Positions 3,865-13,996 of a stretch of DNA of 17,119 bases are shown here, one piece after another (positions within the stretch are counted from its first letter, which is position 1; each line of letters starts with the position of its first letter). The translations under genes and the position numbers were made by a program. The notes under the pieces were generated by a model. It ran no database searches. It saw nothing but the letters and a program-made list of their open reading frames with translations, and was not told the origin of the DNA. Origin of the DNA: an uncultured bacterium (GTDB lineage Bacteria; CAIJMQ01); the NCBI GenBank assembly GCA_903821905.1, contig CAIJMQ010000030.1, positions 1-17,119 of the forward strand. Reading direction: 5' to 3'.

Positions 3865-4596
3865 ATGGGCTTTTTCTTTTTTAAAAATAAGGGCAAAGAA
3901 AAAATAGAAGTAAAAGGTGCTCCAGCTTTCCCCATTGTTGTTCTACTCGTGGAAACGGGTGAAAATTCTAAAGTTTATGAGCTACCCAGTGGTAGAGATT
4001 TTCATATTGGACGAGACCCCAATAATGATTTATGTTTGAACGACCCCAAAGTTTCTCCCTTTCACGCAAAAATAAGCCCTGTAAAAAGTAGTTATGTTCT
4101 TTATGATTTGTCATCAGAAACAGGAGTGAAAGTAAATTGCAAAGAGATTCACCAATGTAGATTGAGATTTGGGGACAGGATAATGATTGGCTCTGTCAGC
4201 TTATTTTTTGATTTAAAGGAGGGGTATAGAAAAAGCGAAGAAGAATTCTTTGAGGGGATGGAAAAAAGAAAAGCTGTCAGGATTTCTCCGCCACTAACGT
4301 TAAGGTTTATAGTTTATTCAGCTAATAAATCTAAAGAATTTGTAGCTTTGGTAAAAGATATTAGTTTGGAAGGCGTGAGAATAGAGATTGAAGAAGAACT
4401 GCTTAAGGGCAGCATGATAGAAGCGCAGATGTATTCTAAAGAGCTTGCACCCATTGATATAATAGGGACAATAGTGCGTAAAGTTAATATTGACAAGGGT
4501 GGTAAAATATTAACAGAGGTCGGGATTCAATTTTTGGAAATGAGTGAAGAATCCAGGCAAAAACTCCATGATTATCTTGTTAAGTGTATCTCTTAA
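3865..4596 (+). CDS. FHA-PilZ fusion protein, copy 1
   Basis: This 243-residue cytoplasmic protein joins two signal-reading domains. Residues ~37-115 form a forkhead-associated domain with the phosphothreonine-binding residues G49-R50, S64, H67 and N91. Residues ~131-240 form a PilZ domain with the c-di-GMP-binding RxxxR (R135, R139) and DxSxxG (D165-I-S-L-E-G170) motifs intact. By family knowledge it could bind a Thr-phosphorylated partner and respond to cyclic di-GMP; the output is unknown. No signal peptide or membrane segment is evident despite the start MGFFFF. A weak AGGA lies upstream. It follows secA by 19 bases and is followed at once by a paralogue. No GGDEF, EAL or Ser/Thr kinase gene is in the window. 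Confidence 0.85.
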   Translation: MGFFFFKNKGKEKIEVKGAPAFPIVVLLVETGENSKVYELPSGRDFHIGRDPNNDLCLNDPKVSPFHAKISPVKSSYVLYDLSSETGVKVNCKEIHQCRLRFGDRIMIGSVSLFFDLKEGYRKSEEEFFEGMEKRKAVRISPPLTLRFIVYSANKSKEFVALVKDISLEGVRIEIEEELLKGSMIEAQMYSKELAPIDIIGTIVRKVNIDKGGKILTEVGIQFLEMSEESRQKLHDYLVKCIS

Positions 4597-4598
4597 AA

Positions 4599-5426
4599 AT
4601 GAGAAATATAATAATTAGATTTTTCCCTAATCTACTCAAAAGAAAAGCCAATGTCGATGAGGAAGTAAAAGATACTTCAGTTCTTATAAACAAAGAGATA
4701 GACGGAGACTCTCCTGTTTACAGCCTCGTTTTGGAAAAAATCCCGTATGGAAAGATAGAAGATTCATTAGTTCCTCCTGCTGTTCTTATACATACAAAGG
4801 TTATCGGAGAACCCCCAGTGTATGCTCTACCTACTAATAGAGAATTTATTATTGGGAGAAATTCTGACAACGATTTATGTTTGATAGGGGAAGACATTTC
4901 GAATGTTCACGTGAAAATAAGGCCGGAAAAAAACGATTATGTGCTTTATAGTTTATCATCTGTAAGTGAAGTACATGTAAATTGGAAGAGAGTATCAAAA
5001 CACAAATTAAAACATAGAGATAGAATAAAAATCGGGTCCCATATCTTGGTTTTTGAATTTGTAAAAGAAGAAGAAATTTTTGATGGAATAGAAAGGAGAA
5101 AAACTGTTCGGGTCCAACCGGTCATGACCGTAGAATTCCTAGTTAATTCTGATAATAAACTTGAAGAATATAAAGGTATAGTGAAAGATATTAGTTTGGA
5201 TGGGGCAAGAATAGAAATAGAAAAAGGACTACATAAAGGCACAGTTATCGAAGCTGGGATTTCTTCCTCAGAGCTACCTCTTATAGAAGTTATAGCCCAA
5301 GTTATCTGGGAAAGATTTATAAATAAAGATGATAAGATGTTATATGACGTAGGTCTTCAATTTTTGGAGATGGATGAAAAATCAAGAAAAAGATTAAAAG
5401 ACCATCTATCTAAAACTATATCCTGA
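4599..5426 (+). CDS. FHA-PilZ fusion protein, copy 2
   Basis: This is a paralogue of the preceding gene with the same order. The FHA domain (~residues 73-150, counted from ATG 4599) has G86-R87, S101 and H104; the PilZ domain (~163-272) has R167/R171 in RRKTVR and D197-I-S-L-D-G202. Both ligand motifs are therefore kept, arguing that both copies work. Its N-terminal extension of about 35 residues contains a partial repeat of the FHA leading strand. The ATG at 4599 lies two bases after the previous stop; a GTG at 4584 would add five residues and overlap the upstream gene. Neither start has a clear Shine-Dalgarno, so translational coupling is likely. The tandem arrangement suggests an old duplication, since much of the sequence has diverged while the motifs have not. 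Confidence 0.83.
   Translation: MRNIIIRFFPNLLKRKANVDEEVKDTSVLINKEIDGDSPVYSLVLEKIPYGKIEDSLVPPAVLIHTKVIGEPPVYALPTNREFIIGRNSDNDLCLIGEDISNVHVKIRPEKNDYVLYSLSSVSEVHVNWKRVSKHKLKHRDRIKIGSHILVFEFVKEEEIFDGIERRKTVRVQPVMTVEFLVNSDNKLEEYKGIVKDISLDGARIEIEKGLHKGTVIEAGISSSELPLIEVIAQVIWERFINKDDKMLYDVGLQFLEMDEKSRKRLKDHLSKTIS
4677..4832 (+). repeat. Partial internal direct repeat in FHA-PilZ copy 2
   Basis: Codons 27-45 (SVLINKEIDGDSPVYSLV region) resemble codons 61-78 (AVLIHTKVIGEPPVYALP), which begin the FHA domain. The underlying DNA at 4677-4733 and 4779-4832 shares GTTCTTATA, CGGAGA and other blocks. This looks like a diverged duplication of the FHA leading strand. Confidence 0.5.
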
Positions 5427-13373: not shown

Positions 13374-13402
13374 TTGACTTTCTTTGAATAATCTTATATA
13401 TT
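13374..13402 (+). promoter_or_regulatory. Strong sigma-70-type promoter for the PstS-like gene
   Basis: TTGACT (13374-13379), a 17-base spacer and TATATT (13397-13402) predict a start near 13409 and a leader of about 85 bases. This contrasts with the nearly leaderless genes elsewhere in the window. Confidence 0.7.
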
Positions 13403-13422
13403 CTACATAATATTTAAGAATC

Positions 13423-13443
13423 TTGTGAAGAAGAAGATGGCTA
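13423..13443 (+). repeat. Inverted repeat, left copy (5' leader)
   Basis: TTGTGAA, one extra base, then AAGAAGATGGCTA (13431-13443). Its reverse complement occurs at 13958-13977 beyond the gene, with 20 positions matching and a one-base gap. It overlaps the uORF start and the left arm of the leader hairpin. Confidence 0.7.
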
Positions 13444-13460
13444 CGAAATCCCGTAGCTAT
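13437..13460 (+). promoter_or_regulatory. Leader hairpin
   Basis: ATGGCTACG (13437-13445) pairs with CGTAGCTAT (13452-13460) around the loop AAATCC, giving nine base pairs with one G-U. It lies about 22 bases upstream of the Shine-Dalgarno. No poly-T follows, so it is an mRNA structure rather than an attenuator-type terminator. Confidence 0.6.
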
Positions 13461-13472
13461 ATTAGTAAGTAA
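13437..13472 (+). CDS. Possible 11-codon upstream ORF in the leader
   Basis: The ATG at 13437 opens MATKSRSYISK followed by TAA (13470-13472), 21 bases before the main ATG. A purine-rich GAAGAAGAAG precedes it, but not a true Shine-Dalgarno. Its start codon is inside the left arm of the leader hairpin and inside the left inverted repeat. It could be a regulatory leader peptide or chance. Confidence 0.35.
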   Translation: MATKSRSYISK

Positions 13473-13481
13473 AAGGGTAAA

Positions 13482-13488
13482 AAGGAGG
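13482..13488 (+). promoter_or_regulatory. Strong Shine-Dalgarno AAGGAGG
   Basis: AAGGAGG ends five bases before the ATG at 13494 and fixes the start of the secreted protein. Together with the strong promoter it suggests high expression. Confidence 0.8.
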
Positions 13489-13493
13489 GTTGC

Positions 13494-13943
13494 ATGAAAA
13501 AAGTAGCATTGTGGGCTGTAATGCTCGCGTTAGTTTTTGCTGTACAGACTGTTTCGGCTCGAGCTGAAGTAGTCTTAAGAGGTTCCATGAGAGTTGGTGA
13601 TGTATTAACAGTTCTTGCCAGATCTTATATGGACAAGAATCCTGGTACGTCAATAAAGGTTGATTTCAATTTCCTTTATAAGGCACAGGACCGTGTTTTG
13701 GCTGGAGAAGCAGATGCTGTAATGGTAACAGATAAATACTATAAGGATTTAAAGACAGAAACTTTAAAGTTTACACCTATTGTTAAAAGAACTATCACGA
13801 GAAATGGTAAAATTGTAGGTTATAGCACTTATGGTATTGCAGCTGTGAAAATTTCTCCCGAGCTTCAGAAGTTCCTTAACTTTATTAATTCTGCAGAAGG
13901 AAAAGAGATTATTAAGGGAATACCGAACGTAAGCCCTTTATAA
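13494..13943 (+). CDS. Small secreted PstS-like binding-fold protein
   Basis: This is a 149-residue exported protein. Residues 1-24 are a Sec signal peptide (MKK, hydrophobic core, cleavage after the Ala-Arg-Ala at 22-24). The mature part begins EVVLRGSMRVGDVLTVLARS, has YMDKNPGTSIKVDFNF and LAGEADAVMVTD, and ends FLNFINSAEGKEIIKG then SPL. This order (strand, helix, strand, helix, ... terminal SPEGQ-like helix) matches the first lobe and tail of phosphate/molybdate-type substrate-binding proteins (PBP-like, PstS family), but typical members are about twice as long; the middle lobe seems to be missing. No transporter permease or ATPase of the Pst type is nearby. It may bind an anion or metabolite, or serve as a periplasmic structural/scavenging protein. 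The secretion call is firm; the ligand is unknown. Confidence 0.82.
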   Translation: MKKVALWAVMLALVFAVQTVSARAEVVLRGSMRVGDVLTVLARSYMDKNPGTSIKVDFNFLYKAQDRVLAGEADAVMVTDKYYKDLKTETLKFTPIVKRTITRNGKIVGYSTYGIAAVKISPELQKFLNFINSAEGKEIIKGIPNVSPL

Positions 13944-13955
13944 TGAAGGGGTTTT
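13934..13955 (+). terminator. Possible intrinsic terminator overlapping the stop codon
   Basis: CCCTTT (13934-13939) pairs with GAAGGG (13945-13950) around a five-base loop, followed by GTTTT. The stem is short and contains the TAA, so efficiency is doubtful. Confidence 0.4.
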
Positions 13956-13957
13956 AA

Positions 13958-13977
13958 TAGCCATCTTCTTTTCACAA
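13958..13977 (+). repeat. Inverted repeat, right copy (3' untranslated region)
   Basis: TAGCCATCTTCTTTTCACAA is the near-exact reverse complement of the leader at 13423-13443. The first 13 bases match without interruption. It begins 14 bases after the stop of the secreted-protein gene. Confidence 0.7.
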
Positions 13978-13996
13978 AGGTTTTTGAGAAGTTTTT
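13965..13996 (+). terminator. Second possible terminator downstream of the PstS-like gene
   Basis: CTTCTT (13965-13970) can pair with GAGAAG (13986-13991, one G-U), followed by TTTTT (13992-13996). The 15-base loop is large. The stem shares bases with the right inverted repeat, so pairing with the leader would compete with it. Confidence 0.4.

Follow-up and report, generated by a model that had tools for sequence, protein, structure and literature searches.

A small gene in the genome of an uncultured Omnitrophota-like bacterium is bracketed by a long inverted repeat. The reading that we favor, with moderate confidence, is that the two arms are strands of a conserved helix formed in cis between the 5' and 3' untranslated regions (UTRs) of a single mRNA, a clamp that, by analogy with known systems, would most likely govern the stability of that message. 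The arms lie on the plus strand at 13417-13452 (core 13425-13452) and 13949-13985 (core 13949-13975) of the window, by which we mean the whole 17,119-nucleotide stretch of DNA analyzed, and were delimited by alignment, folding and conservation. The element is real, conserved and unusual; its novelty lies in the length and evolutionary maintenance of the 5'-3' UTR pairing, not in the type of regulation.

An inverted repeat brackets a small gene

The original prediction described a near-exact inverted repeat around this gene, and the alignment bears this out: 13423-13443 (TTGTGAAGAAGAAGATGGCTA) and 13958-13977, reverse-complemented (TTGTGAAAAGAAGATGGCTA), agree in 20 of 21 columns, with one single-base gap that is the probable cause of its being overlooked by an automated repeat search. 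Within this match 13 bases are exact (AAGAAGATGGCTA; 13431-13443 on the plus strand, 13958-13970 on the minus strand), and a search of the 1.30 Mb genome for other copies, suggested along with the prediction, placed this 13-mer at these two positions only. Inward, the match continues through AAATCCC/GGGGTTTT; outward, it reaches 13417/13985 if G·U pairs are allowed, for a total of about 33 pairs between 13417-13452 and 13949-13985, longer than first described. Local alignment of the leader with the reverse-complemented 3' region scored 38 in the window and 41 and 36 in two relatives, compared with a maximum of 27-28 among 2000 shuffles per species.

The gene itself (13494-13943, plus strand) encodes a secreted protein of 149 amino acids that weakly resembles the PBP/PstS superfamily, at scores below Pfam cut-offs; a structure prediction of low confidence (mean pLDDT 66.8) had no significant counterpart in the PDB. 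A consensus scan and conservation point to a sigma-70-type promoter upstream of the left arm (TTGACT-17-TATATT, 13374-13402, plus strand), the elements of which, TTGACT and TATA(T/C)T, are preserved in both relatives. Given the predicted start near 13409, the left arm begins about 8 bases into the message. The leader, also on the plus strand, carries a predicted hairpin (AUGGCUACG-AAAUCC-CGUAGCUAU, 13437-13460), whose sequence is kept in three species and whose energy ranges across them from -8.6 to -11.2 kcal/mol, and the gene's Shine-Dalgarno sequence AGGAGGG (13483-13489), which is conserved in the relatives. Sequence and alignment also indicate a possible uORF, MATKSRSYISK (13437-13472, plus strand), without a convincing Shine-Dalgarno of its own; it reads MATKSRSYIS in one relative (G002), while in the other (G003) it starts with GTG and ends in SYIN. 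At the opposite end of the gene, folding recovers a conserved hairpin that holds the stop codon and resembles a weak terminator (AAGCCCUUU-AUAAUG-AAGGGGUUU, 13931-13954, plus strand; -9.3 to -9.7 kcal/mol). The right copy of the repeat had been thought to overlap a possible terminator stem; 13958-13977 instead sits immediately 3' of this hairpin, and only the extended arm overlaps it. In an Rfam scan of the three loci, the sole listed match was far under its cut-off and fell outside the element.

On the minus strand, opposite the right arm, lies a tiny open reading frame (13938-13964) that reads MAIKTPSL in the window, MTTKTLPL in G002 and MATKTPPL in G003 and mirrors the MATKS... of the leader uORF; it is probably a by-product of the repeat.

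The arms are conserved across two genera

Orthologs of the gene were found in two other genomes only, G002 (JAHJCU010000003.1, "Ca. Omnitrophota") and G003. Both belong to the family of the window and to a different genus, and the three loci thus span two genera. A profile of the three proteins found no ortholog beyond these three species among 290 genomes, and a search of a genome collection returned the G002 locus as its only hit. An ABC transporter gene precedes the small gene in all three species. The convergent neighbor, which ends at 13995, encodes a flavoprotein of the geranylgeranyl-reductase family (GGR); it is intact in the window and in G003 and is represented in G002 by a remnant with stops (G002:C10:170574-170780). 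No copy of the small gene turned up in G001, a sister of G002 with a 96% complete assembly. The G001 contig stops 74 bases past the ABC transporter gene (G001:C89:1-74), and its last 25 bases diverge from G002 ahead of the promoter and not at the arm; with the contig ending there, G001 does not provide a clean empty site.

Each of the three genomes carries both arms, and a search allowing up to 2 mismatches in 17 bases gave two copies per genome, so that the arms do not belong to a repeat family. The seven genomes of the class contained no further copies apart from one unpaired partial match in the distant G006, which lacks a second arm to pair with and was attributed to chance, and a search of viral contigs for the conserved leader found no copy. 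Pairwise identity between species is 86-96% for the arms (24-26 of 27-28 positions in the left core, 24-25 of 26 in the right arm), compared with 76-79% for the coding sequence, 57-63% for fourfold degenerate sites and 45-70% for the 14-20 bases flanking the arms. Conservation in the leader continues past the left arm through the hairpin and the Shine-Dalgarno region, and it drops just past the right arm, a noncoding stretch between convergent genes. Since the arms are more conserved than the coding sequence, the fourfold degenerate sites and the flanks, this sequence comparison suggests that both are most likely held by selection.

Pairing between the 5' and 3' UTRs is predicted in all three species

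RNAalifold, applied to the three transcripts, predicted a helix of 33 pairs, corresponding in the window to 13417-13452 with 13949-13985. Folding of the individual transcripts, a check put forward with the original prediction, gave the same outcome, as the minimum-free-energy structures of all three hold the helix, with pairing probabilities close to 1 over most of the core. The fold of the full window transcript, which includes the helix, has a z-score of -5.4 relative to shuffles. The predicted duplex energy is -46.9 kcal/mol in the window and -43.9 and -47.7 kcal/mol in the two relatives, which makes the locus an outlier among 669 ORFs drawn from the window and from 740 kb of G002; in the other 668, 5'-3' duplexes reach at best -33.9 kcal/mol (mean -14.7, sd 5.1).

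The pairing is also maintained in evolution. Over the 33-pair helix 94.9% of 99 cells are paired, a figure that falls to 41-60% when the partner is slid by 1-3 columns. In the core of 25 pairs, 73 of 75 cells are paired in the three species, whereas simulations of neutral change at 0.15-0.25 per lineage left a mean of 58 to 49. The window helix contains two adjacent broken pairs (C.A and G.A), and the outer extension beyond the core surpasses shuffles only by a narrow margin (combined p = 0.03). When arms were swapped between species, a preference for the cognate arm appeared in the window and G003 and none in G002. Changes on both sides affect 3 pairs, and the resulting covariation score was equalled by 77 of 500 shuffles, a comparison in which three sequences could scarcely yield a clearer signal. 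The proposal of 5'-3' RNA pairing stands as the best-supported reading of the repeat on the grounds of arm conservation, maintained pairing, G·U bias (see below) and predicted folds.

The long-range helix is mutually exclusive with the leader hairpin and with the 3' hairpin, and it is predicted to be about 25 kcal/mol more stable than the two combined. As had been proposed, the predicted fold excludes the leader hairpin and covers the uORF start with the left arm. The left arm stops at 13452, leaving the main Shine-Dalgarno sequence outside the helix; in the window and in G002 this sequence is predicted to be open whether or not the helix forms. G003 alone differs: without the helix its start codon would be covered by the 5' end, and helix formation is predicted to free the Shine-Dalgarno and start region.

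These features suggest an order of events. During transcription the leader would fold into its own hairpin first. The emerging pyrimidine-rich strand of the 3' UTR could then pair with the unpaired, purine-rich stretch on the 5' side of the leader hairpin, which would serve as a toehold, although this order is itself deduced, and the leader and 3' hairpins would subsequently open as about 33 pairs form. The closed form would bury both ends of the RNA together with the uORF start and leave the main Shine-Dalgarno sequence outside. Pairing probably controls the life or the use of the message. Because the main Shine-Dalgarno sequence is left free of the helix, stability appears a likelier target than translation, and the likeliest consequence would be that complete messages are shielded from end-dependent decay and from RNase Y, as in the hbs mRNA of Bacillus subtilis. 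RNase Y is encoded in seven of seven genomes of the class and RNase E/G in four of seven. More tentatively, the message may be bistable, its end hairpins fusing on completion into the maintained helix of about 33 pairs, so that the mRNA closes itself and finished copies are marked for protection.

Alternative explanations for the repeat

The same complementarity and conservation would be expected if the right arm were an antisense element acting in trans, the partner of the leader being either a short RNA released from the 3' UTR or the 3' UTR of a second molecule of the same mRNA. RNase III would then limit expression, through feedback of the OppZ/CarZ type or negative control of the icaR type, for both of which there are precedents (PMC7821165, PMC3868564). 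By eye, no intrinsic-terminator pattern common to the three species is present 3' of the right arm, and the main Shine-Dalgarno sequence is free of the helix, unlike in icaR. A duplex of this length is sufficient for RNase III, which counts in favor of action in trans. On balance we regard this explanation as rather unlikely.

The chief doubt about the cis helix concerns how far the transcript reaches. The promoter stands upstream of the left arm, and a terminator-like hairpin with a T-rich tail (13934-13950) precedes the right arm. If transcription ended there, the repeat would have no role in RNA and its conservation would have another cause, such as signals belonging to the convergent gene that ends at 13995. 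The best-energy stem of this hairpin, however, takes in the greater part of the T run, and the stop codon lies within the hairpin, so that termination would be weak in a translated message. The right arm persists in G002 even though the convergent GGR gene is a mere remnant there, and conservation falls just beyond the arm. We consider early termination distinctly unlikely and infer that transcription proceeds through the right arm and that pairing occurs in cis.

It is less probable still that the arms function as DNA, as two oppositely oriented sites used, for example, by a gene-looping regulator. Each genome does have a pair of conserved sites of about 26 bp, one on either side of the gene; further sites, which would normally be expected for a regulator, are absent from the genome. 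The strand asymmetry of the repeat also speaks for RNA. The duplex of the mRNA strand is 9-11 kcal/mol stronger than that of the minus strand in all three species, the latter reaching -37.4 kcal/mol in the window and -35.0 and -36.7 kcal/mol in the relatives. Differences between arms over the whole helix yield G.U on the mRNA strand in 13 cells and A.C in 1. This count leans to the mRNA strand, whose own folding supplied the register; Watson-Crick matches fix the register in the core, and there the ratio is still 5:1 in favor of G.U.

A relic of a small mobile cassette was offered originally as the alternative to RNA pairing. Such a cassette or relic, with the arms as its terminal inverted repeats, would fit inverted repeats around one gene and the failure to find that gene in the G001 assembly, but we judge it very improbable in view of the two copies per genome at the same place in three species, the lack of extra copies in seven genomes of the class, the identical upstream neighbor across two genera, the position of the promoter outside the left arm, the absence by eye of an obvious target duplication outside the arms, and the departure of G001 from G002 before the promoter at a contig end.

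Comparison with known 5'-3' UTR interactions

As in icaR and hbs, the 5' and 3' UTRs of one gene are complementary to each other; in the present case the complementarity is extended and above chance, and both the arms and their pairing are maintained in relatives. Of these two systems, the cis helix proposed here appears by analogy to resemble hbs more closely. In B. subtilis hbs, the 5' UTR is shielded from RNase Y by an interaction of 14 nt with the 3' UTR (Braun et al. 2017, reviewed in PMC7821165), and the 3' UTR is reported to be unconserved in close relatives (PMC7821165). The pairing in both cases lies within a short single-gene mRNA, and RNase Y is present in both settings; the helix described here has about 33 pairs, both of its arms are kept across two genera, and an effect on decay is suggested by analogy. 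In Staphylococcus aureus icaR, a UCCCCUG motif of the 3' UTR covers the Shine-Dalgarno sequence and blocks translation (PMC3868564). That 3' UTR likewise pairs in cis with the leader of the same mRNA to give double-stranded RNA, whereas here the helix is far longer and the 3' arm covers neither the Shine-Dalgarno sequence nor the start codon, pairing no further than 13452 when the Shine-Dalgarno sequence begins at 13483.

Two further systems share some of these features. RNAIII of S. aureus, which is also a regulatory RNA, has a 5'-3' pairing of about seven pairs (PMC7821165), and resembles the present case in the long-range contact between the ends of a short mRNA; here the helix has about 33 pairs and there is no sign of a regulatory-RNA role. 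OppZ and CarZ of Vibrio cholerae are autoregulatory sRNAs that are cut from 3' UTRs by RNase E and repress translation initiation (PMC7821165). In these, too, 3' sequence is complementary to part of its own transcript, with the difference that a separate sRNA is involved, whereas nothing at the present locus points to a separate RNA.

Bacterial 5'-3' UTR pairing has so far been described for only a few mRNAs, whose helices are short and reportedly not conserved in relatives. If our reading is correct, this self-closing message would be far longer in its pairing and more conserved than those known, and a long conserved case from an uncultured lineage would offer a clean, testable model of how bacterial mRNAs are closed. 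It also suggests that such elements may be found through cross-species comparison of the two ends of genes.

Two other features of the window may be recorded. Within the signal-peptide codons of the small gene, a terminator-like hairpin followed by TTAGTTTTTG (13510-13538) is kept in the three species and is possibly an intragenic attenuator. Elsewhere, at 3865-5426, two adjacent genes encode related proteins that combine FHA and PilZ domains and are likely readers of phosphothreonine and c-di-GMP.
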